Both the position numbers and the translations under genes were made by a program. A stretch of DNA of 64,000 nt. It comes from an uncultured Bacteroidales bacterium. GTDB taxonomy: Bacteria; Bacteroidota; Bacteroidia; Bacteroidales; Muribaculaceae. Below are positions 48,773 through 64,000 of the stretch, piece after piece. The notes under the pieces were generated by a model that saw nothing but the letters and a program-made list of their open reading frames with translations, did not search any database and was not told the DNA's origin. Where the stretch lies: contig CACYRK010000021.1 of NCBI GenBank assembly GCA_902776835.1, positions 1-64,000 on the forward strand, given 5' to 3'. The stretch's first letter is position 1. Each line of letters starts with the position of its first letter.

Positions 48773-50094
48773 TAAATGTTGTTTCGGTAAAACTTACGGT
48801 TGAGTTTGCCATTGAAGGTGCGCTCGATATGGTCGACGGCCTGGTAGGCCTGCGGCACCTTGTAGCCCTCGAGGCGGTCGGCGATGAATCGCGCCAATTC
48901 GCGCCATGTGATGTCGTGACTCCCATCCTTGACGACGAGCAGTTTCAGGCGTTGTCCCAGCACTGGCGAGACATCGCTGACGCAGATGCAATCGTTCACC
49001 CCAGGGCATGCCAGCGCCACATCCTCGACCTCGGTGGGCGCGACTTTGAACCCGCCAATGTTAATCACGTCGTCGATACGCCCCATCAGGCGCAGGCGGC
49101 CCTGCTCGTCGATGCGGCCGTTGTCGGCGGTGAATACCGTGCCGGCGCGCATTACCTGTGCGGTGAGAGCATCGTCGAGAGCATAGCCCGTCATCAACGT
49201 CGGCCCCTGGCAAGCCACCCTACCCTCGTCGGTGATGAAAATGCGGGAGTGCTTCATGGGGCGGCCCAAGCATGCCGGCAGGCACTCGCCGTCGTTGAAG
49301 TTATAGGTTGCGACGATGCCCGTCTCGGTCGAGGCGAAAGTGTTGTACAGCCGCGTGTTAGGCAGTAGCCGGCACAACTCGAGCATATCGCTGTGCGGCA
49401 TGGGCGCTGCCCCAGTCTCGATGAAGTCGAGGCGATGGGCATACTGTGCCAGTCGCGATTTGGCCAACTGCAGCACGATGCGGATGCTCGCCGGCACGAG
49501 AAATGTCGCCACCTTGTCGCAAGGGTAATCCATAGCGTCGAAAAAGGCATTCAAGTCCTTCAAGTTCTCAAGGATGCACAGCGTAGCCCCCATCATAAAG
49601 GTGGGATACACCTTCGAGAGGCTGCCGATGTGGTTGAGCGGGCCATTGACGATAAACAGCAGATTGTGCGAAAAGCCCATGGCGTCGATAAGGTTCTCGG
49701 AGTCGGCAATGATGATGCCGTGACTAATCATAACCCCTTTCGACTTGCCGGTGGTGCCAGTGGTGAAGAGGATGTCGGCCACACCATCGGGCGCGCGAAA
49801 CGCGGCATATTGCTCAGCGATGGCGTCGAAGACGGCCTCGGGAATGTCGTGCTCGAGGGGCATCGCCACCACATCGGCACAATGCATGGCGAAATAGGTC
49901 ACCAAGAAGTCGACCGATTGCGAGGTGCGCAAAACTGCCACACTGCGCGGGGCGTAGCGGGCACGGATTTGCTCGGCTTTCAACTCGATGCGCTGCCACA
50001 ACTCGGCATAAGTCACCCTCTCGCCGCGGCAAATCACAGCTACCTTGTCGGCACAGTGGAAGGCATTATTTCGCAAATAATCTTCGATGGTCAT
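48772..50094 (-). CDS. AMP-dependent acyl/aryl ligase
   Basis: Activates a carboxylic acid with ATP and loads it on CoA or an acyl carrier protein. The AMP-binding motif is LFTTGTTGKSKGVMISH (about 109-125), followed by LYNTFASTETGIVATYN and the hinge LMGRIDDVINIGGFKVAPTE; the catalytic lysine fits FNGKLNR near the end. At 440 aa it is shorter than most family members, as are ligases of aryl-polyene clusters. It overlaps the upstream ACP gene by 4 bp, suggesting direct loading of that ACP. Confidence 0.9.
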   Translation of the reverse strand: MTIEDYLRNNAFHCADKVAVICRGERVTYAELWQRIELKAEQIRARYAPRSVAVLRTSQSVDFLVTYFAMHCADVVAMPLEHDIPEAVFDAIAEQYAAFRAPDGVADILFTTGTTGKSKGVMISHGIIIADSENLIDAMGFSHNLLFIVNGPLNHIGSLSKVYPTFMMGATLCILENLKDLNAFFDAMDYPCDKVATFLVPASIRIVLQLAKSRLAQYAHRLDFIETGAAPMPHSDMLELCRLLPNTRLYNTFASTETGIVATYNFNDGECLPACLGRPMKHSRIFITDEGRVACQGPTLMTGYALDDALTAQVMRAGTVFTADNGRIDEQGRLRLMGRIDDVINIGGFKVAPTEVEDVALACPGVNDCICVSDVSPVLGQRLKLLVVKDGSHDITWRELARFIADRLEGYKVPQAYQAVDHIERTFNGKLNRKFYRNNI

Positions 50095-50315
50095 TTTGCC
50101 TGAAGTTTCGCCTGCACCATGGCAACGATGCTGTCAAGATTTTTGAGGTTTTTCGGTGTGGCGTCGACCACATCGAGGTCGATGCCGTATTCGCTCGAGA
50201 GCAACATCAGTATGGTGGTAACGCCCAGCGAGTCGAGTTCGGCAAACAAGAAATCAGAGTCGATATTTACCAGCGGAAGAGCCTCTTCCAATAATGACTT
50301 AATCTTCTCTTTCAT
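50091..50315 (-). CDS. Acyl carrier protein 1
   Basis: 74-aa carrier protein. The phosphopantetheine serine is in ELDSLGV (about 26-32). Helical pattern and acidic character fit the family. It overlaps the AMP-ligase gene by 4 bp and starts 2 bp after the MMPL gene stop. Confidence 0.88.
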   Translation of the reverse strand: MKEKIKSLLEEALPLVNIDSDFLFAELDSLGVTTILMLLSSEYGIDLDVVDATPKNLKNLDSIVAMVQAKLQAK

Positions 50316-50317
50316 AG

Positions 50318-53300
50318 TTACTTATTAATTATAATGATGTTATATTGTTCATAATCAAGCAGTTGGACCGACGTTGGCTCAACTAAATAGACCACTGCGC
50401 CACTGTGCCGAGCCACGAAGTCGCCAATCATCGCCTTGTCGCCCTCAACGGTAACGCCAGAGCGGCTCGACAGGCACTGCTGTGCCACGGCGGCCTTGTC
50501 GGCATCGCGTTCGACGGCCAGGATGTGCATCTCGGGGTTCAAGAGCGACATCAGCATCGCGCACTCGCCCCAGCCGCAATTCACAATCACGGCGGCGTCA
50601 GGACGATTGTCGGCATCGAGCCACTCGCCGTAGTTCCCGTAGCGCTTGAGGCGCTTTTTCACCTCGCGATATATTTCGATGCCGCGATAGCGGTAGTGGT
50701 CGAGGACATACTGGCGGAAATAAGCCGTCGACTCCTCGGCGCGTCGTCGCTGCTCGCTGCACTTGTGGAGCACAGCAGCGACGTCGGCATCGGCATCGAC
50801 GCGCTCGCCCACCTCGGCGGTCACACGACCGGCATAGAGGCACGCGCTGTGTGGAGGCATCACCATGTCGGTGCCATGCAGCACCAGTGGCAGCACGTCG
50901 GCCTGGGCGGCCGTTGCAACTTTCTTGGCAAAATCGTTGTTGCCGAGCACCGCCACGCTGCATCCTTGACGCATGAGTTCCACGAGCGTGCCGGTTTGCG
51001 CCTCGACGAATCGCAACCGCATCAGTTTCTTTGCCAACGCGCCACACAGCAACTTGCCATCATCGGCAATCACCAGTTTGCACGGCAACGCGCGCAGCAC
51101 GGCCAAATCGAGCGCACTGTTGTGGTCACAGGCCACCACGGCGGGCTTGTCAAAAGCCTCGCCACTGTCAGTCAACAAGTTGAAAGAAACACCATGGATG
51201 TGGCGCACACCGAAAAGTGCGGGTGCCAATCCACCCAAACCCCGCAGCAGCGGCATCAGCGTCACCGGGCGACGGCGTTCGCGGCCTCGCAGCGTCACCA
51301 GCCACTTGAAGATGAGCGGCGGGAACAAGTAGGCCATCAGCACCACTGAGAACATTCCCACGATGGTTACCTGCGCCAGCGAGTGCAACGCGGGATGCTT
51401 GGCAAAAATTAGGCTGCCGATGCCGATAAACATCAGCAGGGCCGACACGATGATGCTGCCCTTGTAGGAGGCCAGCATCTTGCGGCCATAGGCATACTCG
51501 TACTGGCAACCCTCGGTCATAAAGATGGTGTAGTCGTCGCCCTGACCGAAGATAAAGGTGGCCAAAATCACGTTCACCACATTGAACTGGATGCCGAGCA
51601 GCGACATTATGCCGAGAATCCACACCCAACTGATGGCCATCGGCAGGAACGACAACAGAGCCAACTCGATGCTGCCCAGCGAGAACCATAAGAAGAAGAA
51701 CACGATGAGCGCGCACGCCCAACCGATGTAGTTGAAGTCGTCGGAGAGATTGGTGGCAATCGACGAGTTCATGGTCGTGACGTCGAACACCATAGCCCCG
51801 GGCAGGTCGTGCTCAAGTTTCTGCTCCACATCACTTATTGTGCTTGCGTCGGCCACAGTCACGGCATCAATCACATGGCACAAGCCCGCCACGCTGTCGG
51901 TGACCATCTGGCGAGCGCACACTGTCGAGGTGACAGGCTCAAAGAATTGTATTGGCTGCGCATCGAAATGCGTATCAATCAGACTGTTGAAGTTGTCAAA
52001 CGAACCATTGGCAAAGCCCTGCATCGCGGCATTGGCAGCCACTTGCTGCTTGAGTTGCGCCCCATATTTTGCCACGAAGTCGTTCCATCGGTCAAGGCGC
52101 TGCCGCTGCTCGTCGCCAGTGACAACGAGCGAACCGACTGACGAGAAGTTGCCGACTGTGCCACTGCGTTGCATCTGCTCAAGTGCCGGCCGCCCGGCGG
52201 CACTCTTGGCGAGCGCCCCCTCGAGCGTTGTGTCGCTGGCGACCATATAGACGGTAGCCACAGCCGAGTCCTGCTCGGCAATTCGCTGGAAATAAGCCAT
52301 ATCGTCGCGCTGCTGCGCAGTCATATAGTTGATGTGGCTCATATTGGCATCGAACGATGTGTTGAGGCTGAAATAAGCGAAAACTATTGTCAAGACTACC
52401 ACGGCGATGGTGAGCCAGCGATGATTCTCGAGCGAGAGGTCGCTCACGGTGTCGAGCAGAGGCAGGCGGGCATTTGTGGTGCGTCGCGCGGTGAGATGCG
52501 GCAAATATATGAGCACAAACACGATGGTGCCCACCAGCAGCAGGGCGGCAAAAGCGCCAAGGTCGCGCAACGCCACCGACCGTAGCGGCACGAGCGCCAG
52601 GAAAGCACCCACCGTAGTGACATTGCCCACCACCAGCGGCATGACGATTTCCTTGAGAGCCGACTTGACGTCGGCAGTGTGTCTCAAGTGCGCAATCAGA
52701 TGGAGCGGATAGTTTACGGCTATACCCACTATTACCGACGAAATACCGATTACTATCACCGACAGTTCGTTGTGGAACACCGTCAGCAGTCCCATGGCGA
52801 AAAGCCATCCCCACGCTATCGACACGGCAATGAGCAGCAAGTTGCGCACGTTGCGGAACACCCAGAACAGCAAAGCCAGGATGAGCGTCACCGCCACCAG
52901 CAGCGAGAGCAGGCTGTCGTGCTTGATTTGCGATGAGTTGGCCACAGCAATCACCGGGCCACCGACAAAGCGCACGTCGACTTGCGGATGTGCCGCCATC
53001 GTTTCGGCGGCCACCTGCTCGAGCAACGTCAGCAGTTGCGCGTTATGCTCAGTCTCGCTGGCGCCGTAGGGCGACGTCATGGTGGCAAAGGCGCGCGTCA
53101 TGTCGTCGCTGAAGAAATATCCGTCGTAAAGTTCATAATTGACTGCCGGCTGCGAGCCTTGCAGTCGTGCCACCGCCGGCGTGAACAGGTTGAGCGGGTC
53201 GCGCTGCATGTTTTCGGCGAGCAGCCCCGACACGGGGAACAGGAGCATCTGCTTGTCGGCCTCGAGTTGCTCGGCAATGTAGTTGCCGTCGCTGAGCAGG

Positions 53301-53737
53301 CTGTCGAAGCGTGCGTAGTCGGCCTCGGTGAGGAAGTAAGGGATGTTGGAGTAGACAAATTCGGCCACCTGGGCAAACTGCTCAGTGTCGATTTGTGTGG
53401 TCAAAGACGAGGCCATCCCCGCCGTGTCGCGCTCGCTCAAGCGCTGCTCAAAGTGGCTGATGGCAGCCACGACGGTATCGGGCAAGGCGTTGGTCGAGTC
53501 GCCGCATTCAAAGATTGCTATCACACGGTCGGCACCCGAATAGTCCTGATAGACCTTCATTGCCTGCTGATACTTGTTGTTCAGCGGCAGGAAGTCGGAG
53601 ATGTCCTCTTTGTAACTTTGTCGCATCACCAGCAACGCCAACGCCACGGTGAGCACAAGCAGCGACACCAGCATGAGCATGCGGTGCTGGCGCAGATAGT
53701 CAAATATGGCGATAATGGCCTTGGTCATGGCATGCAA
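50318..53737 (-). CDS. MMPL-family exporter fused to acyltransferase-like and Rossmann domains
   Basis: 1139-aa multi-domain protein. Residues 1-810 are an RND/MMPL lipid exporter, with a first helix at about 18-40, a large periplasmic loop, two helix bundles, and the duplicated second half (FGQGDDYTIFMTEG). Residues about 830-1000 resemble a PlsC acyltransferase with HNSALD (H-x4-D, about 871-876), but the usual PEGTR box is replaced by LGNND, so activity is doubtful. Residues about 1045-1139 look like a SAM-type Rossmann half (VIVNCGWGECAML, then AVERD). It is placed between the acyltransferase and ACP genes without gaps, so it probably exports the product. Confidence 0.85.
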   Translation of the reverse strand: MHAMTKAIIAIFDYLRQHRMLMLVSLLVLTVALALLVMRQSYKEDISDFLPLNNKYQQAMKVYQDYSGADRVIAIFECGDSTNALPDTVVAAISHFEQRLSERDTAGMASSLTTQIDTEQFAQVAEFVYSNIPYFLTEADYARFDSLLSDGNYIAEQLEADKQMLLFPVSGLLAENMQRDPLNLFTPAVARLQGSQPAVNYELYDGYFFSDDMTRAFATMTSPYGASETEHNAQLLTLLEQVAAETMAAHPQVDVRFVGGPVIAVANSSQIKHDSLLSLLVAVTLILALLFWVFRNVRNLLLIAVSIAWGWLFAMGLLTVFHNELSVIVIGISSVIVGIAVNYPLHLIAHLRHTADVKSALKEIVMPLVVGNVTTVGAFLALVPLRSVALRDLGAFAALLLVGTIVFVLIYLPHLTARRTTNARLPLLDTVSDLSLENHRWLTIAVVVLTIVFAYFSLNTSFDANMSHINYMTAQQRDDMAYFQRIAEQDSAVATVYMVASDTTLEGALAKSAAGRPALEQMQRSGTVGNFSSVGSLVVTGDEQRQRLDRWNDFVAKYGAQLKQQVAANAAMQGFANGSFDNFNSLIDTHFDAQPIQFFEPVTSTVCARQMVTDSVAGLCHVIDAVTVADASTISDVEQKLEHDLPGAMVFDVTTMNSSIATNLSDDFNYIGWACALIVFFFLWFSLGSIELALLSFLPMAISWVWILGIMSLLGIQFNVVNVILATFIFGQGDDYTIFMTEGCQYEYAYGRKMLASYKGSIIVSALLMFIGIGSLIFAKHPALHSLAQVTIVGMFSVVLMAYLFPPLIFKWLVTLRGRERRRPVTLMPLLRGLGGLAPALFGVRHIHGVSFNLLTDSGEAFDKPAVVACDHNSALDLAVLRALPCKLVIADDGKLLCGALAKKLMRLRFVEAQTGTLVELMRQGCSVAVLGNNDFAKKVATAAQADVLPLVLHGTDMVMPPHSACLYAGRVTAEVGERVDADADVAAVLHKCSEQRRRAEESTAYFRQYVLDHYRYRGIEIYREVKKRLKRYGNYGEWLDADNRPDAAVIVNCGWGECAMLMSLLNPEMHILAVERDADKAAVAQQCLSSRSGVTVEGDKAMIGDFVARHSGAVVYLVEPTSVQLLDYEQYNIIIINK

Positions 53738-54859
53738 TTACTTGTTGTCGACAGGATTAGCGTAAATTCCCAAGAAAATCTCCTTCAACTGCTCGAGGTC
53801 AAACGAATCATAGCGGTTCAGGCACTCCATGTGGGCGACGAAGGCATCGAACTGCTCGTCGGTGTACATGGCCCGATACTTTTGATTGCCGAAGAGGATG
53901 TCGTGGGCAATGTAGTTGTTGGGATAGAGGCGATAAGCGGTGTTGATGCGTGAGTCGATCAGGCGCGCCACAGCACGGTGATACTCCACGTTGGTGAGCC
54001 CCTCGAACGCCATGAGTTCCGAGAGCGAGATGGGCTCGCACAGTTCCATGTGCACCCTACCCTTGTAATGCGTGATGCCCGAGAGGATGCTGTTGAGGTC
54101 CTCGCCCGGCTTTTTCACATAGCGCATAAACTGCGACTCATATAGTTCCAGAGTCTTCAGCACGTCGCACGACTCCCACTCGTAGGACACCGAGATGGGC
54201 ACGATGTGGAGGTCGGCAATGGCCTTGATTTTGTCGTGTTGCTCGCTCAGGCAGAACATCTTGATGATTCCCTGGTCGGTGGCATCGTTGCCGTCTTTGG
54301 TGCGACCGTTGCGCTGGGCAATCCACACCGACTCATGGTTGACCGTGATGGCCTCGCGAATGTATTGCGACAGGTGCAGCGAACCGCGATAAAACTCACG
54401 AATACCGCCGCCGGGGCGCGCCACCTTGAACATCTTGTTCGACTTTCCGAGGTCGACCACCAGCGGATGGGTCATCAGGTTTGCGCCAAAGGTGATTTGC
54501 GTAGTCTCGAAACCTTTACTCACAAGGAAGTATTGCAACAGGCTGGAATCGAGCATGATATCGCGATGATTCGACACGTAGAGGTAAGGCTTGTCCTTGC
54601 TCAGGCGCTCGATGCCCGAGCACGTGAAGGTGTCGATTGACCGCGCAATCACCTGCTCATTGACCTTGTACATGGTGTCGTGCTGAAACTCGCGTATCGT
54701 TTTGAACGAGGTCACACGCTTCACCACGTCGGCCAGCGAAAGTTCGGGATAGACCCATGAGGCAATCATGGGGAACGCCTCATGAGCGACGATGCGCGGA
54801 ATGGCCTCGCGAAACTCAGCATCGGTGTAGGGACGAATGTCGTCGAAGTTGCTATTCAT
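53738..54859 (-). CDS. 1-acyl-glycerol-phosphate acyltransferase-like protein
   Basis: PlsC-related acyltransferase with SNHRDIMLDSSLL (about 110-122, NHx4D) and the second box near RNGRTKDGND. I chose ATG 54859 (MNSNFDDIRPYTDAEF); the frame is open farther up but that part overlaps the esterase gene and has no family match. Product 373 aa. It overlaps the esterase gene by 8 bp and abuts the MMPL gene, so it fits a role in attaching the acyl chain to a lipid carrier. Confidence 0.85.
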   Translation of the reverse strand: MNSNFDDIRPYTDAEFREAIPRIVAHEAFPMIASWVYPELSLADVVKRVTSFKTIREFQHDTMYKVNEQVIARSIDTFTCSGIERLSKDKPYLYVSNHRDIMLDSSLLQYFLVSKGFETTQITFGANLMTHPLVVDLGKSNKMFKVARPGGGIREFYRGSLHLSQYIREAITVNHESVWIAQRNGRTKDGNDATDQGIIKMFCLSEQHDKIKAIADLHIVPISVSYEWESCDVLKTLELYESQFMRYVKKPGEDLNSILSGITHYKGRVHMELCEPISLSELMAFEGLTNVEYHRAVARLIDSRINTAYRLYPNNYIAHDILFGNQKYRAMYTDEQFDAFVAHMECLNRYDSFDLEQLKEIFLGIYANPVDNK

Positions 54860-55703
54860 TATTATAAATTTGTTTAATCCAGTTGATAAAAGCCGCTTTC
54901 CACTGCCGGCACTCACTGGTGCCCTTGGTGTCGCTGGCGCCGAATCCATGGCCGCCGGTGGCATATTGAATGTAGACGTGGCCCACACCTTGCGCGGTAA
55001 GTGCCGAGTCGAGCAGCACCGAGTTGCGATAGTCGACCACCGGGTCGTCCTTGCAGTTGACCAGGAACACCGGTGGGCAGTCGCGTGGCACGTGGCGCTC
55101 GAGCGACAAGAGGTCGCGCAAGGCCTCATCACCAGCCCGCGAGTCGCCTAACAATCCGCGCCGCGAACGCTTGTGCACACACTCGTGGGTCATAGTCACC
55201 ACTGGATACACCGGGACGACAAAGGCTGGGCGCTGGTCGGGCTGAAACAGTTCGGCCGCCGACATCACAAGGTGCCCTCCGGCCGAAAATCCCATCGCAC
55301 CCACGGCGGTGCTGTCGATGCCGTACTCTGCCGCATGGCGTCGCACATAGCGCAGTGCCTGCAGCAAATCGTCCTGAGGATCGGGATAACGGTTGCCGTG
55401 CCACAACAGGCGATAATGTGTGACGAAGGCCATTGGACCCGCCGTGCGATACTTCAGCACGAACGCCGAGATGCCGTTGCTCAGCAGCCAGCGCGCCACA
55501 TCGTGGCCCTCGACATTGATATCGTGCCAGAAATAACTGCCGCCGGGACACACAATCACCGCCATATTGCCCTCGCCTGGAGCCACATAGGGCGTGAGTT
55601 CCACGGCGGTGTGATTAGGCACACCCTCCCAGATGTTGACGGCGGCGCGAGCGCTGAGCACCGTCAAGCAAATCAGCAATATGTGGGTTAACGCTCGGCG
55701 CAT
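54852..55703 (-). CDS. Exported alpha/beta hydrolase (esterase)
   Basis: Secreted hydrolase of the BD-FAE/acetyl-esterase type. Signal peptide MRRALTHILLICLTVLSARA, oxyanion region VIVCPGGSYFWHD (about 49-61), nucleophile GFSAGGH (about 132-138), acid in NCKDDPVV, and His in GGHGFG. I chose ATG 55703, which gives the signal peptide; the upstream open frame overlaps the oxidoreductase gene. Product 283 aa. An envelope esterase within a lipid operon may trim or transfer an acyl group; the substrate is unknown. Confidence 0.85.
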   Translation of the reverse strand: MRRALTHILLICLTVLSARAAVNIWEGVPNHTAVELTPYVAPGEGNMAVIVCPGGSYFWHDINVEGHDVARWLLSNGISAFVLKYRTAGPMAFVTHYRLLWHGNRYPDPQDDLLQALRYVRRHAAEYGIDSTAVGAMGFSAGGHLVMSAAELFQPDQRPAFVVPVYPVVTMTHECVHKRSRRGLLGDSRAGDEALRDLLSLERHVPRDCPPVFLVNCKDDPVVDYRNSVLLDSALTAQGVGHVYIQYATGGHGFGASDTKGTSECRQWKAAFINWIKQIYNNE

Positions 55704-57196
55704 GAGTTGATTTTGTTTATTACGAAATTGCGGCCCAGGAGTGCCTCGGCGGTCTTTATAGCCGTCAGCGGCACGCCACAAAAGCCGTGCAGATTGTTGT
55801 TTTGCCCGGTGAGCAGCAAATTCTTGATTTTTGTGACGATAGGCACCTGCGAGAGTGCCATGTTTCGGCAGTCTTTGCTGAAACCGCTTATGCTGCCTTC
55901 TTTCACGCCGTAGAAGTCGCGTATAGTTAGCGGCGAGGCGGTAATCATCTTGTCGATGCATCGCTCGAATCCTGGATGCATCTCGTCGATGCGCGCGAGC
56001 AGTCGCTGTGCCATCTCACGCTTCCATGCCAAGTAGTCGTCGCCACGACGGCCTGTGGTGGTGTTTTCCCAGCGACGCACCATGTCGAATGGCATGGGTG
56101 CCGTAAGCAATACCTTGCTGGCATATTGGCCTTGACGCGCGTCGGGCGGTGTCATGAACAGGAAACCTAAGGGCCACGGCTTGTCGGCACGCTCAAACTG
56201 CCAAATGTCGTCGTAGCGGCCCATGTAGTACTCCGAGCGGTTGATATACGGGAAGGTGCCGGGTTTCAACTTGATGTAAAGCGAGAAAGCCGAGTAGGCA
56301 TTGGGGATGCTGTCGAGTCGGCTGCGATAAGCCTTAGGCAAGGCTTTCTCGTCCATGATGCGCATCAAAGCACAGGGGTGTATGGCCGAGATGTAGTGCT
56401 GGGCGGTGTATCGCGCCCCGCTGGCGGTGTCGACGTGGTCAATCATGCGGTCGTTGACCTCGACCCAGGTCGCCGCGTCGCCGGCAATCACCTGCCCGCC
56501 GTTGTCACGTATCACGTCGGCAAGCGTAAGCGCAAAGCGGCCAGTGCCGTCGACAAAGCGACTGGTGCCACAGATATATAACACACTGATAATGGCGTGG
56601 ATATAAGCCGGCGTACAGTTCTCGCGCCCACCGTACAACGGGTTCATGTAGGCGATAATGCTGCGCAACTTCGGGTCGCCGATAAACGTGGCGATATAAT
56701 CGTTGGCTGCCATGAGGAAGTTGGGCACATCGGGCATGATGCTAATTACCGACTCGGGACGCAGATTGAAAGCGTCGACCTTCTCGGTGAGGCTGAAAAT
56801 CGCATCCACATATCGCTGCAGGTTTTCCCGCTCATGCGGGAAATGCTGCGCCAGGGAGTCGACAAAGCCCTGCCGCCCCTTGGCAATGGCGTAATGCTTC
56901 TTGTCCTCGGCAAAGTAGAGCAAGTCGGAGCAATCGTCGTCGACGTCGCGCAGCATCATCTTGTCGAGCACACCCAGATAGTTGCATATGCGGCGTATGT
57001 TGCCACCGGGCTGCATACCACCCACCACGTGCATCCCGGTGTCGAAGGTCTCGCCAAAGCGCGTGAACGACTGCAGGCCGCCGCCAATGTTGGCGTTCTT
57101 CTCCAGCACGGTCACCTGAAAGTCCTCCTTGGCCAGGATGGCGCCAGTGAAGAGCCCTCCCAATCCTCCTCCTATTATTACGACGGTTGGTTTCAT
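55688..57196 (-). CDS. CrtI-like NAD(P)/FAD-dependent oxidoreductase 2
   Basis: Flavoprotein of the phytoene-desaturase/isomerase fold. The FAD-binding motif is GGGLGGLFTGAILAKEDF (about 8-25) followed by EKNANIGGGLQSF; the C-terminal motif GQNNNLHGFCGVPLTAIK closes the FAD site. Length 502 aa. It is about equal in length to the adjacent paralogue (57193-58701), which it overlaps by 4 bp. No carotenoid genes are nearby, so a redox step on a polyene or acyl chain is more likely. Confidence 0.87.
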   Translation of the reverse strand: MKPTVVIIGGGLGGLFTGAILAKEDFQVTVLEKNANIGGGLQSFTRFGETFDTGMHVVGGMQPGGNIRRICNYLGVLDKMMLRDVDDDCSDLLYFAEDKKHYAIAKGRQGFVDSLAQHFPHERENLQRYVDAIFSLTEKVDAFNLRPESVISIMPDVPNFLMAANDYIATFIGDPKLRSIIAYMNPLYGGRENCTPAYIHAIISVLYICGTSRFVDGTGRFALTLADVIRDNGGQVIAGDAATWVEVNDRMIDHVDTASGARYTAQHYISAIHPCALMRIMDEKALPKAYRSRLDSIPNAYSAFSLYIKLKPGTFPYINRSEYYMGRYDDIWQFERADKPWPLGFLFMTPPDARQGQYASKVLLTAPMPFDMVRRWENTTTGRRGDDYLAWKREMAQRLLARIDEMHPGFERCIDKMITASPLTIRDFYGVKEGSISGFSKDCRNMALSQVPIVTKIKNLLLTGQNNNLHGFCGVPLTAIKTAEALLGRNFVINKINSCAER

Positions 57197-58701
57197 TGGC
57201 TGGCCTCGACAATTTGGTTATAAATCCTGCTTGCGGTGAGAAACTCGCTACAGGTTACTATTGTACCCACGAGCACGCCGAGCATGCCATGCGAATTGAT
57301 GTTCTGCCCAGTTTGTAACACGTTAGGGATGCGGGTGCGGTGCGGCACACGCGCCACGGCACCAAGTTCGACATCCTTTGCCACGCCGTACATCGAGCCG
57401 TCCTGCGTGCCAGTGTAGTCGCGGTAAGTGAGCGGCGTCGAGGTGTAGTAGTGCTTCACGCTGTCGCGCAGCCCTGGGAAGTGCTTCTCGAGCGAGTCGA
57501 GCAACACCTCGGCCTTTTGGCGCTTGAACGCCTCGTAATCATCGCCACGACGCCCTACCGTAGTGCCGGCCCAGCGCTCCACATCGCTCATTTGCATATA
57601 TGACAATATCACGCCGGTGTGGGCAAACTGCTGCTGTGGCATGTCGCAGAAATGCATATACAGGAAACCCTTGGGCCATGTGAGTTCATCGTATTTCTCG
57701 CAGTCCCACGGCGTGCCGTAATTGTAGCCGTAGTAATTGCTGTTCATATAAGGCACGGTGCCGGGCTTGAACTCCAAGTACACCGAGAAGCCACCCACCG
57801 TTTGCGCCATGCCATTGATTCGTTGCCTGAACGCGGGACGAATGAGTTTGCTGTCGATGAGTTCGAGCGTTCGCATCGGGTGGGCGTCGGAAATCACATA
57901 ATCAGCATCGATGAGGCGCTCGCCATTGACTTCGACTGCCGTGGCGTGCGTGTCGTCGCACACGATGCGTGTGACCTTGTGGCCCGTGAGCACCTGCCCG
58001 CCATACCGCTCAATGACACGCTTCAGGGCAAAAGCCGCGTTGTCGCTGCCGCCAGTTATCCTGTAAGCGCTCTGGTTGTAGAAGTCCATGATGAAAGCAT
58101 GGGTCGAGAACGGCGTCTTGTGCTTCTCGGCGGCATATAGCGGCAAGTTTCCCACCAGCACCCGCGCCAATAGTGGGTCGGTGATGATTTCGTCAATCAC
58201 CTCGTCGATTGGCCGCAACTGATACTCGGTGTTGAGCACGGCATCGCTCTCGGCACTCTTGAGCGAGTGCAGCGACGAGGCGTTGGCCACCTCCTCCACC
58301 AGGCTGAAGTAGCGCGCCAGGTTGTCGCGCTGTTGCGGGAAGAACTGCGCCAGACGGTCGATGAACGCGTCGCGGCCGTTGGCAAAGGGGAATCGCTCAC
58401 CCTCGAGGGCGATGATGTCGTAGCCATTGGGGTCGAGTTGCGAGAGCGTAATCTCGTCACGAATTTCGAGGTAACGCATCAGTCGGTCGAGCGTCTGTCC
58501 TTGAGCGGCACTGCCAATGAAGTGCATCCCGGTCTCGAACTTTGCCCCGCGCCGCATGAAGCACTGCAAGCAGCCACCGAGTTGCGTTCCCTGCTCGAGC
58601 ACAGTGACCTGATAGCCGTTTTTCGCCAAAACCACTCCGCACGACAGGCCACCCAAGCCACTGCCAATTATCACTACTCGCTTGCTACACATCTTGCTCA
58701 A
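57193..58701 (-). CDS. CrtI-like NAD(P)/FAD-dependent oxidoreductase 1
   Basis: Paralogue of the next gene, with FAD motif GSGLGGLSCGVVLAKNGY (about 12-29), EQGTQLGGCLQCF, and the C-terminal GQNINSHGMLGVLVG. The protein has 502 aa. Two such enzymes in tandem suggest a heterodimer or two successive desaturations or isomerisations. It overlaps the glycosyltransferase gene by 17 bp. Confidence 0.87.
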   Translation of the reverse strand: MSKMCSKRVVIIGSGLGGLSCGVVLAKNGYQVTVLEQGTQLGGCLQCFMRRGAKFETGMHFIGSAAQGQTLDRLMRYLEIRDEITLSQLDPNGYDIIALEGERFPFANGRDAFIDRLAQFFPQQRDNLARYFSLVEEVANASSLHSLKSAESDAVLNTEYQLRPIDEVIDEIITDPLLARVLVGNLPLYAAEKHKTPFSTHAFIMDFYNQSAYRITGGSDNAAFALKRVIERYGGQVLTGHKVTRIVCDDTHATAVEVNGERLIDADYVISDAHPMRTLELIDSKLIRPAFRQRINGMAQTVGGFSVYLEFKPGTVPYMNSNYYGYNYGTPWDCEKYDELTWPKGFLYMHFCDMPQQQFAHTGVILSYMQMSDVERWAGTTVGRRGDDYEAFKRQKAEVLLDSLEKHFPGLRDSVKHYYTSTPLTYRDYTGTQDGSMYGVAKDVELGAVARVPHRTRIPNVLQTGQNINSHGMLGVLVGTIVTCSEFLTASRIYNQIVEASQ

Positions 58702-60190
58702 TACGGTTGGCGATTTGTTGATATTTTTCCTGATAGTGCTTTCGCAAGCGCTTGGCCTGCTGCTTCACGTCGCCCATGTCGCGCAACTGCTGCTGCGTGA
58801 TGGGCTCTCCCACTTCGATGTAGATGGGGCTCTTGTGCAACATGTGCGACTTCTTTGGCAACACCTTTCCGGTGCCGTAGAGGTACATGGGCAGGATGTC
58901 GACGCCCAACTGCTCGGCCAGGAAAAACGCGCCCTGGTGAAAGCGCCCGATCTCGCAGTCGCGCGAGCGTGTGCCCTCGGGGAAGAGCGCAATGCTGTAG
59001 CCCTGGGCAATCGACTCCTTGAGGCGCGGCAGAATCTCGTCGATGCCGTTCGACACGGCATGGTAGCCGGCGTTCCTGATGAGGAAGCCGTAGAAGGGGT
59101 TGTTCCACACCCAGTCGTTGGTGAGGAACACAATGTTAGGTGTAAAAATGAGTTGGCACGCCAAGTCGAGGTGCGACTGATGGTTGCAAATAACGATGTG
59201 TGGCGTGTCGAAAGCCGTGGCATCGGCAACCTTGTAACTGAACTTTGCGCCCGGCAGCCCATGCTTGAGCATGATGAATCGCGGAATAAATTGTATGATG
59301 CGATGCAGATTCTGCCGTTTCTTGGGCGTCATTTTGCCGATTTTTACATATAGCCACACCAGCGGCGTGGTGACGAAAATCGAGAAGAACACAAAGGTGA
59401 CAATGGCGTAACCGGTGCGCAGGTATTTCATGAGCCATCGCGCGATGCGCAGCGGCAAGCCGTAGACAATGGCCAGAAAACACAGCAGGGTGTTCAGCGC
59501 GAAGATGCGCGCAAAGTCAACACCGGGCCTGAAGTGACTCACCCGCTCGGCTTGAGGCGGATAATACACGTCGATGGGTATCGACACGAGTTTCACACCA
59601 TGCCACGACGCCAGCACCATCAGGGCCAACTCGGCCTCGTAGCGCGACGGCATCAGGCGCAGATATTTAAGTTTCTTGAGCGGGTAAAGACGGTAGCCCG
59701 TCTGTGTGTCCTTGAGGTTGCGCCCCGTCTGAATGTAGAACCAGAAATTGGAGAACTTGTTGGCGAAACTGCTGCCCTTGGTGCGATCCACGCCCTCGAG
59801 ATTACGCTCGCCCACGATTAGCGCGCCAGGATGCTGCTGGTTGGCTTTCAGAAACTTAGCAATGTCGGCAGGATAGTGTTGCCCATCGGCATCGAGGGTG
59901 ATGGCATAGGCAAAGCCCATCGCCAAAGCCTTCTCAAAGCCGCAGCGCAAGGCATAACCCTTGCCGCGGTTGACCTCGTATTCAACCAGGGTGATGCCCT
60001 CGATTGAGCGCAACGTGGCTGTTGTGGAGTCGGTGCTGCCGTCGTTCACGACAATGACATCGTCGCACATTTCCAGCGTCTCGGCAACGACACGGCCTAT
60101 TGTCCCACCATTGTTGTAGGTGGGGATAATCACACAGATGCCGCGGTCGTGCAGCAACTGTTTTTGACGTATGTTACTGTCACTGTTCAC
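58685..60190 (-). CDS. Glycosyltransferase family 2 - lysophospholipid acyltransferase fusion
   Basis: 501-aa two-domain protein. The GT2 domain (about 17-235) has VIIPTYNNGGT, VVNDGSTDST and the metal-binding DADG (100-103), similar to dolichol-phosphate-mannose synthase types. Hydrophobic helices lie at about 228-248 and 260-282. The acyltransferase domain (about 300-480) has NHQSHLD (336-342) and FPEGTRS (403-409), both intact. The same fusion (ApeJ-type) occurs in aryl-polyene clusters, where it is thought to help build the lipid anchor. Overlaps the dehydratase gene by 11 bp. Confidence 0.9.
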   Translation of the reverse strand: MNSDSNIRQKQLLHDRGICVIIPTYNNGGTIGRVVAETLEMCDDVIVVNDGSTDSTTATLRSIEGITLVEYEVNRGKGYALRCGFEKALAMGFAYAITLDADGQHYPADIAKFLKANQQHPGALIVGERNLEGVDRTKGSSFANKFSNFWFYIQTGRNLKDTQTGYRLYPLKKLKYLRLMPSRYEAELALMVLASWHGVKLVSIPIDVYYPPQAERVSHFRPGVDFARIFALNTLLCFLAIVYGLPLRIARWLMKYLRTGYAIVTFVFFSIFVTTPLVWLYVKIGKMTPKKRQNLHRIIQFIPRFIMLKHGLPGAKFSYKVADATAFDTPHIVICNHQSHLDLACQLIFTPNIVFLTNDWVWNNPFYGFLIRNAGYHAVSNGIDEILPRLKESIAQGYSIALFPEGTRSRDCEIGRFHQGAFFLAEQLGVDILPMYLYGTGKVLPKKSHMLHKSPIYIEVGEPITQQQLRDMGDVKQQAKRLRKHYQEKYQQIANRIEQDV

Positions 60191-60560
60191 TCACATTGCA
60201 TTTAAAAGACAGTTTCGACAGCGCCTTTCCGTCGGGCGACAGGATTTGTGCGCGGCACTCGGCATGCCCGGCGTCGGCAACGATGTGGTCAAGCGTCACG
60301 ACCACCTCAGGCAACTCGGCGGGTGCCACGGGTGCCAGGAATTTCACGTTCTTGATGTGACTGATATCGAGGCGCATGCCGTAGCAGTCCTCGAGCAATT
60401 CTTTAGCGATTTGCAGCAGGCACACACCAGGCGTGATAGGCAAATCGGGGAAATGCGCCCGGTAGATGAAGTGGCCGGCGTTCAACGCTATGGCGTAGCG
60501 TGCCGTATCGGCCTCGGTGTGGCTGTCGACCACTGTATATAAGTCATTGCGTAAGGTCAT
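60180..60560 (-). CDS. 3-hydroxyacyl-ACP dehydratase-like hotdog protein
   Basis: FabZ-like dehydratase of 126 aa. The hotdog signature FIYRAHFPDLPITPGVCLLQ (about 33-52) contains the HFPxxPxxPGV pattern. I chose ATG 60560 (MTLRNDLYTVVD); the frame extends upstream but only over the preceding gene, which it overlaps by 17 bp. In polyene synthesis this step makes each double bond. Confidence 0.87.
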   Translation of the reverse strand: MTLRNDLYTVVDSHTEADTARYAIALNAGHFIYRAHFPDLPITPGVCLLQIAKELLEDCYGMRLDISHIKNVKFLAPVAPAELPEVVVTLDHIVADAGHAECRAQILSPDGKALSKLSFKCNVSEQ

Positions 60561-61032
60561 AATCGTCGTCCTCGTCTGATAAGTTAATGTCGTCGTCACC
60601 GCCCGTGTAGGGAACAAAGGTGTAGGTGATGTGTCGGCGCTGGTTGACATAGGTGGTGTCGCCCTGCTCGAGCGCCTTCATCAGATGCTTTATGTCGCCT
60701 TTCAGCGTGCGCTTGATGTACCACTTGTTGAGCATTGGCAGCACGTCGATGAGTTTCACCTTGCCTTTGTCGGGCTGATAGGTGAAGTTGAGAGCCGTTA
60801 TGCCAAACTCGTTAAACAGGCTGGCTTTCATCATGTTGCCATCGAGCATAACGACGCACATACCGCTCACATAGGCCCGCGGCGTCTCGATGCTGGCCGT
60901 GAAGCGCGTGTGCGCGCCGTCGACGGTCGGCAGCAACGACTGCGCCGATGCCAGCAGTGGCAGCAATGCCAGCAACAAGGTGCTAAGCGACGCTAAACGT
61001 ATTTGCCGGAATCGACACATTGGCTTTGACAT
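60544..61032 (-). CDS. Exported protein of unknown function in the lipid operon
   Basis: 162-aa protein with a hydrophobic signal (about residues 12-30, LASLSTLLLALLPLLASAQ) and a beta-rich mature part that ends in an acidic tail (DDDINLSDEDDDYD). No family is assigned with confidence. It lies between LolA and the dehydratase, the place where small outer-membrane lipoproteins occur in aryl-polyene clusters, but no lipobox is seen. The start could also be 61020. Overlaps the LolA gene by up to 50 bp. Confidence 0.68.
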   Translation of the reverse strand: MSKPMCRFRQIRLASLSTLLLALLPLLASAQSLLPTVDGAHTRFTASIETPRAYVSGMCVVMLDGNMMKASLFNEFGITALNFTYQPDKGKVKLIDVLPMLNKWYIKRTLKGDIKHLMKALEQGDTTYVNQRRHITYTFVPYTGGDDDINLSDEDDDYDLTQ

Positions 61033-61597
61033 TTTTCAGCACTATTACTGTACGGTCGCCGTTTTTCTCGGTCAGTTCCACCTTGGTGACCATCGAGTTT
61101 TGCTTGTTGAAGTAGAGTTTGATGTTCTGGAACATCTGCTTCATCTCCTTGCGCCGCGGCAGAAGTGTTGCCACCCACTCGGTCTTGCCGTCGGCAATGC
61201 TGACTTTGAAACTGCCGGTGTCGGTGAGGCAGTTGCCCACCACGCTGCTCATCATGATGTTGGCAATCTCCTTGAACACCTTGTTGCGCTGAACATTGAT
61301 GACGTCGCTGCGGCGTGGCCCGTTGATTTTCACCTTCGACCCATTGAGAATAAAGGAATACTTGTAAGGCGTGACGTATTCCCAACGGAGTTTGTCGCTG
61401 CGCTGATAGTACATTTTTCCGGTCGACACCACGTTTTGGTTGAGCATCTTCACGTGCTTGGTCTGCACAAAGTCGCACTGCATCGACCGCAACTGTGCTG
61501 CCGCGCGGCTGATTTGCTGCTTGACCTGTGATTGAGTCTGTGCCTCAACCGAGAAGCACATCACGAGCATTATTGCTAAGAAAAATAACTTTTTCAT
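60983..61597 (-). CDS. LolA-like outer-membrane lipoprotein carrier
   Basis: Periplasmic carrier with the LolA fold, 204 aa. Signal peptide MKKLFFLAIMLVMCFSVEA, then QLRSMQCDFVQTKHVKML, TGKMYYQRSDKLRWEYVTPY and a Lys/Val-rich C-terminal strand pair. I chose ATG 61597, which has an AGGA upstream; ATG 61609 overlaps the transporter stop by ATGA and is an alternative. A dedicated LolA occurs in aryl-polyene operons and probably ferries the lipid product across the periplasm. Confidence 0.87.
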   Translation of the reverse strand: MKKLFFLAIMLVMCFSVEAQTQSQVKQQISRAAAQLRSMQCDFVQTKHVKMLNQNVVSTGKMYYQRSDKLRWEYVTPYKYSFILNGSKVKINGPRRSDVINVQRNKVFKEIANIMMSSVVGNCLTDTGSFKVSIADGKTEWVATLLPRRKEMKQMFQNIKLYFNKQNSMVTKVELTEKNGDRTVIVLKNVKANVSIPANTFSVA

Positions 61598-61605
61598 GAT
61601 TCCTT

Positions 61606-61959
61606 TCATTTTACGATTAAAAAACAACCCACGATTATGCAAAACACACCCATCCAGCGAGTCACCGACACCTGCTCGTGAAAGAAGAGCATGGCGGCAA
61701 ACATGCCGAAGACGTAACTCAGGCTCACCATGGGATATGCCACGCTGAAGGGGAACACCTTCACGATATACATCCACAGCAGCGACGCGGCGCCAAACAT
61801 CAGGCCGCTCAGGGCAAACTGCCAGTTGACCAGCATCGCGCCCCAGAACTCCTTGTTCCAGGCGAAAGCCGGCATGCGCATCAGTGCGAACTTGAGAAAC
61901 ACCTGTGCTGCGGTGAGCAAAACGCTCTGCACAATGGCGAAAGGTATTATTTTCAACAT
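61606..61959 (-). CDS. EamA/SMR-like four-helix membrane transporter
   Basis: 117-aa protein with four predicted transmembrane helices, similar to EmrE/ArnE-type small transporters (VFPFSVAYPMVSLSYVFGMF, then FFHEQVSVTRWMGVFCIIVG). Such proteins can dimerise to move small molecules or undecaprenyl-linked lipids. It overlaps the ketosynthase gene by 7 bp, so it belongs to the operon. Its role there is inferred from position. Confidence 0.78.
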   Translation of the reverse strand: MLKIIPFAIVQSVLLTAAQVFLKFALMRMPAFAWNKEFWGAMLVNWQFALSGLMFGAASLLWMYIVKVFPFSVAYPMVSLSYVFGMFAAMLFFHEQVSVTRWMGVFCIIVGCFLIVK

Positions 61960-63725
61960 GATAGAACTATTGCTTTAGAGTGAAACGATGATGGAGCAAC
62001 TTCGATGCCCAGATGCTGGAGCAACTGTCGCAACGTCGGGGTCATCTCGTCGTGCAACCCCACGAGCACGGTCTTGCATCGGCCGCTGCGCAAGAGCATT
62101 TCGGCATCGCGCATGGCCCATTGCAGCGATTGCGCCCCATGCGAGTAGGTCACGTTGTAGCCATGACACTTAAGACGCATGGCGATGTTGCTGCTTATGG
62201 TGTTGTGGGTGCTCTGCATGAAATAAGTGGGCTTGAGGAGCACTTCGCCTTCGTCGCGCAGTTGTTCGAGCAGACGCTCGCTGTATTCCAGGCAACCCCA
62301 AGCCGTGGCGGTGACGATGGCGTCGGGCGTCTCAATGCCCGCCTGCTGCAACGCCTTGAGCGACGCCAGCAACGAACTCTTCATGATTTTGCCCATGCGG
62401 CGCGCCTCCAGCGGCTTGACGTAGTTGCGAATGTCGACAAGTTGCTCATCGTCGGCAATGTCGACCTCGGCAAGCACCTTCACATCCACGTCGGCAAGAG
62501 CGGCATCGGCAGCATTGGTCGCTTGGCGCGAGAACACCAACGACGAGTCGTTGCCGCCGAAACCGAACGAGTTGCACATCACATGGTCGATAACATGGTG
62601 CTCGATGCCCAATGAAGGCGTGATGCCACCCGGCATGGCAGTGGCCCAGCCCAAGTTGGCCGGCACGAAGCCGTGGCGCATAGCCAGCAAGCAAATCACC
62701 GCCTCGATGCTACCGGATGCACTGGTGGTGTGGCCCGTGTAACACTTTGTGCTTGACACGGGCGGCAAGTCGTTGCCGAACACACGCAGCAAGGCGGCGC
62801 TCTCACTCAGGTCGTTGTTTGGCGTGGCGGTACCGTGAGCGTTGACATAATGAATGTCACGCGGCTGAAGCCCAGCCATCTCAAGTGCCTGTGTCATGGC
62901 GCGGTAAGCCCCCTCGCCATCGGGCGACGACGCCGTCTGGTGGAAGGCATCGCAGGCATTGCCGTAGCCTGTGAGGTAGCCGAGCACATGTGCTTGGCGC
63001 GTGGCTGCATCGCCCTCGCGCTCCATCACCACAAATGCCGCTCCCTCGCCCAGATTAAGCCCGGCACGGCTATCGTCGAAAGGCCGACAACGCTGTGTGT
63101 CAAGGATTTGCAACGAGTTAAAGCCATTGAGGTGGAACAGCGACAGGGCCTCGGTGCCACCGGCCACCACCACATCGGCCTGCCCGGCCTCGAGCAGTCG
63201 CGCACCCAAGATGATGGCATTAGCCGCCGAAGAGCACGCTGTGGAGATTGTCGTGGCCTCGTCGAAAAGCCCAATGTGAGCCGCCATCAACTCGGTGCTC
63301 GAGCCGCAGTCGTGCTGACGCAGACTGTCGAGGTGAGTGTAGTCGCCGTCGAGCAACTCGCCAAAATGACGCTCGGTGATGTCCATGCCGCCCACCGTAG
63401 TGCCCGACACAAGCACCACACGCGTGGCCGGCCGCGAGTGCTTCAGGTGGGCAATGCGAGCCTCATCCACTGCCTGTCGCAGGGCCAGCATGCCCATTAG
63501 CGATGTGCGGCTCACCTCGCGCGAGGACTCGATGCCCAGCATTGCTTTCATCTGCTCGTTCGACAGGTCGACCTCGCCCACCGGCAACTCATGGTGCGAC
63601 GAGCCAAGATACCGCATGGGGCCTATGCCCGTGCGGCCATGGCGCAACGCATCCAGCACTGCCTCGGCGCCTATGCCTATTGCCGAAACGATGCCCTGGC
63701 CGGTGATGACGACGTTAGCACTCAT
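61953..63725 (-). CDS. Beta-ketoacyl synthase fused to a chain-length-factor-like domain
   Basis: 590-aa polypeptide. Residues 1-410 are a FabF-type ketosynthase with Cys164 in STACSSAANA, His297 in VNAHGTATPNND, His332 in GHTTSASGS and FGFGG (387-391), so the catalytic triad is intact. Residues about 440-590 resemble the Ketoacyl-synt_2 chain-length factor of aryl-polyene clusters (KPTYFMQSTHNTISSNIAM, HGAQSLQWAMRDAEML, VLVGLHDEMTP), with Gln where a catalytic Cys would stand. In proteobacterial clusters these are separate subunits. It starts 6 bp after the ACP gene. Confidence 0.88.
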   Translation of the reverse strand: MSANVVITGQGIVSAIGIGAEAVLDALRHGRTGIGPMRYLGSSHHELPVGEVDLSNEQMKAMLGIESSREVSRTSLMGMLALRQAVDEARIAHLKHSRPATRVVLVSGTTVGGMDITERHFGELLDGDYTHLDSLRQHDCGSSTELMAAHIGLFDEATTISTACSSAANAIILGARLLEAGQADVVVAGGTEALSLFHLNGFNSLQILDTQRCRPFDDSRAGLNLGEGAAFVVMEREGDAATRQAHVLGYLTGYGNACDAFHQTASSPDGEGAYRAMTQALEMAGLQPRDIHYVNAHGTATPNNDLSESAALLRVFGNDLPPVSSTKCYTGHTTSASGSIEAVICLLAMRHGFVPANLGWATAMPGGITPSLGIEHHVIDHVMCNSFGFGGNDSSLVFSRQATNAADAALADVDVKVLAEVDIADDEQLVDIRNYVKPLEARRMGKIMKSSLLASLKALQQAGIETPDAIVTATAWGCLEYSERLLEQLRDEGEVLLKPTYFMQSTHNTISSNIAMRLKCHGYNVTYSHGAQSLQWAMRDAEMLLRSGRCKTVLVGLHDEMTPTLRQLLQHLGIEVAPSSFHSKAIVLSC

Positions 63726-63731
63726 GACGTA

Positions 63732-63989
63732 TTACTTGGTGCGGTGCTCGCTCACGTAGCGGGCTATGGTTTCAACACTGGCAAATATCGCCTTTCCCTC
63801 GGCGGGATTGGCGAGGCGAATGCCATAATTCTTCTCAAGGAGCACAATCAGTTCGAGGGCGTCGATAGAATCCAGCCCCAGTCCTTCGCCGAACAGCGGT
63901 GCCTGGGCATCGATGTCGTCGGGTGTCATTTCCTCGAGATTGAGCGCGTCGATGATGCGTTCTTTCAGTTCCTGAATCAATTCTTCCAT
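63732..63989 (-). CDS. Acyl carrier protein 2
   Basis: 85-aa carrier protein; the phosphopantetheine serine is in GLGLDSIDALEL (about 36-47). Sequence differs clearly from ACP 1 (ELDSLGV), so the two probably carry different intermediates. It is the first gene of the visible operon, which very likely continues beyond the right edge. ATG at 63989 is 11 bases from the window end. Confidence 0.92.
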   Translation of the reverse strand: MEELIQELKERIIDALNLEEMTPDDIDAQAPLFGEGLGLDSIDALELIVLLEKNYGIRLANPAEGKAIFASVETIARYVSEHRTK

Positions 63990-64000
63990 GATTATTTTTC

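Follow-up and report, generated by a model that had tools for sequence, protein, structure and literature searches.

The 64,000-nucleotide stretch of Bacteroidales DNA analyzed here (the window) carries, at positions 61953-63725 on the minus strand, a gene that very probably encodes a ketosynthase (KS) with its own chain-length factor (CLF) attached. Sequence comparison and a predicted structure suggest that this protein is a one-chain KS:CLF pseudo-heterodimer belonging to an aryl-polyene/flexirubin-type type II polyketide cluster. As the original prediction had it, KS and CLF follow one another in a single reading frame, an unbroken ORF of 590 aa, with the following parts.

62520..63725, minus strand: KS domain, a FabF/ApeO-like condensing enzyme, aa 1-402 (PF00109, E 3.8e-33; PF02801, E 2.1e-32)
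63234..63236, minus strand: catalytic Cys164
62835..62837, minus strand: catalytic His297
62730..62732, minus strand: catalytic His332
62481..62519, minus strand: linker, about aa 403-415 (~13 residues), the gap between the modeled domains
61956..62480, minus strand: half-size CLF domain, aa 416-590 (175 aa), one thiolase half without a catalytic Cys (PF13723; 6QSP_B/7F28_A; the model; Foldseek match to 6RIW over both domains)
62133..62135, minus strand: Ala531, aligned with the KS catalytic Cys (hhalign, CLF half on KS N-half)

The N-terminal part of the protein is a complete KS, as had been proposed. The two Pfam KS domains match residues 4-359, ApeO (6QSP_A) is among the PDB matches of the domain, and FabF structures align with model residues 1-402 at Z 57-58 in VIA-align, whose match lists are filled by KS-only chains and carry no information on C-terminal parts. 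The three predicted active-site residues were all found in place and are the same in all 50 fused homologues. The C-terminal part had been likened to the CLF of aryl polyene ketosynthases, and the searches bear this out. PF13723 (gathering score 25 bits) matches residues 433-565 above that score both in the whole protein (E 1.8e-10) and in the C-terminal piece alone (E 8.5e-12); the same piece alone matches the ApeC chain 6QSP_B in a PDB search (E 5.9e-5), and a profile of relatives matches AbApeC 7F28_A (E 6.7e-9) and 6QSP_B (E 3.2e-7). Together with the Foldseek match to 6RIW, these matches rule out a C-terminal extension unrelated to KS. One detail of the earlier description did not hold, namely Gln in place of the catalytic Cys: in the profile alignment it is Ala531 that occupies the Cys column, with Gln532 as its neighbor outside that column, and neither residue is conserved. 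Among relatives, column 531 holds mainly E13, D13, A7, S6 and K6, column 532 mainly D18, E10, R8 and Q6, and Cys occurs in neither. The direct hhalign comparison behind this placement aligns the CLF half weakly with the N-half of the KS (probability 33, p 8e-5); it suffices to locate the Cys column, but by itself would not establish homology. The key point is that Cys is missing from the CLF half.

The AlphaFold model of the whole 590-aa chain, made with 50 homologues, is of high confidence (pLDDT 94.2, pTM 0.95). In Foldseek comparisons, KS-only chains give a TMq of about 0.63, and the single-chain KS-CLF didomain of PfaC (6RIW) gives 0.80 over 742 columns. Because the KS accounts for 402 of the 590 residues, or 0.68 of the chain, a TMq of 0.80 exceeds that fraction and implies that the CLF half superposes simultaneously. 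The CLF half is predicted to sit about where a CLF sits on its KS, that is, on the KS dimer face, the packing that the original prediction had anticipated. In the mechanism that we propose, the half-CLF would fold back via the ~13-residue linker onto this face and replace the second subunit, one polypeptide thereby forming a pseudo-heterodimer such as ApeO and ApeC make from two. The KS half, as sole bearer of the Cys-His-His site, would catalyze the condensation of malonyl-ACP with the growing polyene, and the CLF half would complete the cavity of the active site and the face on which ACP docks. The condensing activity, the polyene product, pairing in cis in solution and any effect on chain length are what we infer.

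The same halves might also pair in trans, two fused chains lying head to tail with each CLF half on the other's KS, in a domain-swapped dimer with two sites. The prediction is of a monomer, in which pairing in cis and a two-chain swap are indistinguishable, and the linker region, which is variable in length (40-54 residues when measured from a fixed point in the KS to one in the CLF), might permit either; however, the high-confidence monomer model meets the interface in cis, and the modeled arrangement resembles 6RIW, in which both domains belong to one chain. We consider the swap unlikely and favor the pseudo-heterodimer paired in cis. Loss of the second thiolase half, which most split relatives have kept, could also be read as a sign that the C-terminal part is a decayed and functionless remnant. 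This is very improbable, as several observations argue against it. In close pairs, dN/dS was 0.054/0.463 for the CLF vs 0.061/0.580 for the KS, and 0.058/0.912 vs 0.091/0.756; purifying selection on the CLF half is about as strong as on the KS, from which it follows that the CLF half is maintained. Moreover, the QSTHNT motif in the CLF half does not vary over 50 homologues, and ApeC, with a single thiolase fold, is a working CLF of half size (PMC8358021). Between the two domains, dN is high at residues 401-430 (the linker region) in the majority of close pairs, a relaxation not seen in KS and CLF, and the linker behaves simply as a tether.

The same architecture, a KS fused to a half CLF, is common among Prevotella-like bacteria and is present in 58 loci, the window and 57 others from independent assemblies, among them the isolate Prevotella jejuni DSM 26989 (L076). 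An assembly or sequencing artifact might be suspected, since the window comes from a draft genome in 53 contigs, but an architecture shared by so many independently assembled genomes excludes chance or artifact, and the probability that we leave to the latter is negligible. Another species of the window's genus, G008, shares the fusion at 69% identity, and in a further genome of the genus (G010) the KS and CLF genes are separate, with a 4-bp overlap. The 109 usable loci, gathered as best CLF matches and hence enriched for close relatives rather than giving a frequency, comprise 58 that are fused with a half CLF, 14 fused with a full-length CLF, 34 split with a full-length CLF and 3 split with a half CLF. 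The survey of Bacteroidales that had been suggested was carried out on an even draw of 393 genomes of the order: 109 bear a CLF (the agreement with the 109 loci above is coincidental), and in 10 of these, counting the window's own genome, frame inspection showed KS and CLF within a single frame. An even draw of the class contained 51 CLF-bearing genomes from outside the order, and none was found to have a KS in frame with the CLF. Their CLF frames are too short for a KS save in three genomes (G436, G480, G659), where open frames 577-649 aa long surround the CLF; these looked like fusions, but on reading proved to contain no KS in the same frame and were rejected.

On a quick KS tree, on which gain and loss are not separable, the fused-half state needs 2 changes and lies in one Prevotellaceae-rich group, to which the window belongs, plus a small Bacteroides group. 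The fused-full state needs 9, at least 6 of them forced by starred branches, and fused versus split needs 11. These counts imply repeated gain of the fusion or its repeated loss. In relatives farther off, the genes are separate, frequently overlapping by 4 bp, or the CLF is full-length and fused. Within the full-CLF clade the state differs even between very close relatives (L123 split, L130 fused), from which it follows that the tether is not essential. Nor is it strictly required by a half-CLF, since separate half-CLF genes exist outside the main half-CLF group (L039, L126 and, in other Bacteroidales, L213:2141-2899, L214:727-1500 and L215:796-1317).

These data bear on why the fusion exists. 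Overlapping neighbor genes may simply have been joined by small mutations that left function unchanged, the stoichiometry having already been fixed by the overlap, and to this neutral origin we would give close to an even chance. A 4-bp gene overlap is a common sign of translational coupling. The overlaps in split relatives speak for a neutral origin, as do the 11 changes on the tree and the differences between very close full-CLF relatives, whereas the stability of the fusion in the main half-CLF group, in which 55 of 56 rows are fused, speaks against it. The sole exception, L091 (Prevotella histicola JCM 15637, a draft), was scored as split, yet it differs from P. jejuni by a 1-base deletion at L091:5989-6001 that breaks the fused frame at the CLF start, and it was not accepted as a true split; the deletion is either a real mutation or a draft error. 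The related suggestion that a covalent KS-CLF would fix stoichiometry is plausible but names nothing special to the fusion, because the split relatives read in detail overlap by 4 bp and a 1:1 supply of KS and CLF may be assured in them without fusion. A neutral origin concerns the reason for the fusion, not the working of the protein, and can hold together with our reading of the latter as a KS with its own CLF attached.

Of the 14 fused-full relatives, 5 carry an in-frame palindromic REP-like repeat at the KS/CLF junction, and this repeat codes for the linker.

L130:5818-5886: REP-like repeat, arms CTGAGCYTGTCGAAG / CTTCGACARGCTCAG, one arm decayed
L132:5834-5884: REP-like repeat, arms CTGAGCYTGTCGAAG / CTTCGACARGCTCAG
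L138:5834-5884: REP-like repeat, arms CTGAGCYTGTCGAAG / CTTCGACARGCTCAG
L146:5834-5884: REP-like repeat, arms CTGAGCYTGTCGAAG / CTTCGACARGCTCAG, one arm decayed
L149:5845-5870: REP-like repeat, CGTCATTGCGGGCTTGACCCGCAAT

DNA folding at these junctions was far beyond that of shuffles in L132 (z -7.2) and L138 (z -5.9), moderately so in L146 (z -3.1) and L149 (z -2.3), and not beyond shuffles in L130 (z -0.8). The close split relatives L123 and L128 have a 4-bp overlap, ATGA (stop/start), at the position of the repeat. As an origin of the window's own linker the repeat was rejected, its core being absent from the window.

The genes around the fusion include the following.

63732..63989, minus strand: acyl carrier protein (ACP), just upstream in the same operon (PF00550; NF006617 above cut-off)
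61606..61959, minus strand: EamA/ArnE-F-like small membrane protein, overlapping the end of the fusion gene (PF00892)
60983..61597, minus strand: LolA2 of flexirubin-type clusters, LolA2_flexi (NF053544 equivalog, 230.7 bits, cut-off 125)
Contig C21 63999-65714 (L005:3999-5714), minus strand: second fusion, KSb-Cb, read from the window's own genome, its last 3' bases (63999..64000) inside the window
Contig C21 70617-71849 (L005:10617-11849), minus strand: the cluster's third KS, which lacks a CLF-like extension and is possibly the counterpart of ApeR

In all, the cluster holds three KSs, ACPs, LolA2_flexi, a thioesterase, a methyltransferase, acyltransferases, an MMPL exporter and an acyl-CoA ligase. 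LolA2_flexi, ACP, KS and acyltransferases all score above cut-offs; a FabZ-like dehydratase is weakly supported (fabZ E 1.4e-5, below cut-off). This gene content points to a flexirubin/aryl-polyene-type type II polyketide cluster that misses the tyrosine ammonia-lyase trait of flexirubin proper: an aromatic amino-acid lyase is absent from the cluster, and the genome's sole PF00221 gene sits on a different contig (C13). Polyene synthesis requires a ketoreductase, and no reductase or ketoreductase was recognized among the cluster genes examined, from position 46316 to 64000 of the window and on to 71849 of contig C21. Because no lyase lies in the cluster and no reductase was seen, the product is one that we infer. 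At 55688-58701 of the window, on the minus strand, are two tandem 502-aa genes that by eye have the look of phytoene-desaturase-type FAD oxidoreductases, a pair unexpected in an aryl-polyene cluster.

The neighboring KSb-Cb is a protein of 571 aa that combines a KS with a CLF-like half-domain, Cb, of ~175 aa at its C terminus. C139, H268 and H302 of KSb are the same in all 49 homologues. Pfam does not recognize Cb as a CLF: eight members of set A2 gave no significant Pfam match, and a wider set of 16 gave a weak KS-N match in 3 (best 1.4e-4) and a sub-cut-off fabF match in 8 (best 6.2e-8). The best PDB match of Cb is the ishigamide CLF 6KXD_B (8.1e-4, and 2.1e-4 in a second search), and hhalign relates Cb to the ApeC-like CLF (probability 87, p 4e-6). 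For the model of KSb-Cb (pLDDT 94.0, pTM 0.95), Foldseek ranks 6RIW first (TMq 0.78, KS-only chains giving about 0.6). Cb is separate in most other Bacteroidia, and in split relatives it is a gene of its own of about 190-240 aa. In the class draw, 52 genomes have both CLF and Cb, 3 have the CLF alone and 1 has Cb alone, a co-occurrence that makes a second KS:CLF-like pair a regular part of these clusters. Tentatively, we suggest that flexirubin-type clusters of Bacteroidia generally encode two pairs, KSc with an ApeC-like CLF and KSb with Cb, and that both are fused in Prevotella-like bacteria, yielding two self-contained condensing enzymes that might share elongation, for example as early and late rounds.

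These proteins would provide natural single-gene KS-CLF enzymes outside the PUFA synthases, from culturable Prevotella and from a kind of cluster found widely among bacteria of the mouth, gut and rumen. Compared with a complex of two subunits, a fused pair should be simpler to express and mutate, and what the CLF contributes to chain length would become directly testable. In addition, related species offer a natural series of split/full, fused/full, fused/half and split/half CLFs in which the roles of the tether and of the second thiolase half may be addressed, and the unrecognized second CLF-like family may help to explain the many KS-like genes per cluster.

Among known systems, ApeO-ApeC, the heterodimer of KS and CLF that serves in aryl polyene synthesis (PDB 6QSP; A. 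baumannii 7F28, PMC8358021), is like the window's protein in pairing a KS with a half-size CLF of one thiolase fold, and both halves are sequence relatives; unlike its two proteins, the window's pair is one chain. Aryl polyene clusters have already been reported from oral Prevotella (PMC8549736). The flexirubin clusters of Chitinophaga pinensis and Flavobacterium johnsoniae, with several KSs, ACPs, LolA, acyltransferase, glycosyltransferase and exporter (PMC3992019), resemble the window's cluster in gene content. They differ in that the window's cluster has no lyase and that the sampled Bacteroidia outside the order have no single-frame KS and CLF. The ishigamide KS-CLF, Iga11-Iga12 (PDB 6KXD-F), provides the CLF chain that best matches Cb, but it consists of two separate full-length proteins from Actinomycetes, unlike the fused KSb-Cb. 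KS and CLF had been held to be separate proteins in known systems, which is not the case: PfaC-type PUFA synthases hold both in one chain, and the structure has been solved (6RIW; PMC9702510). The PfaC didomain is like the window's protein in having the KS and then the CLF in one chain, with a similar predicted placement of the domains. However, PfaC, 15% identical to the window's protein, is part of a type I multidomain megasynthase and has a full-length CLF, whereas the window's protein is a free-standing type II enzyme of 590 aa with a half CLF and separate ACP genes. In the open-access literature we found no description of a KS-CLF fusion in such clusters, of a free-standing type II KS with a half-CLF or of the second CLF-like family. 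Thus, KS-CLF pairing, as separate proteins and, in PUFA synthases, as a fusion, was already known, and so were half-size CLFs; what appears to be new here is a putatively cis-acting, free-standing type II KS with a half-CLF in flexirubin/aryl-polyene-type clusters, together with a second CLF-like family.
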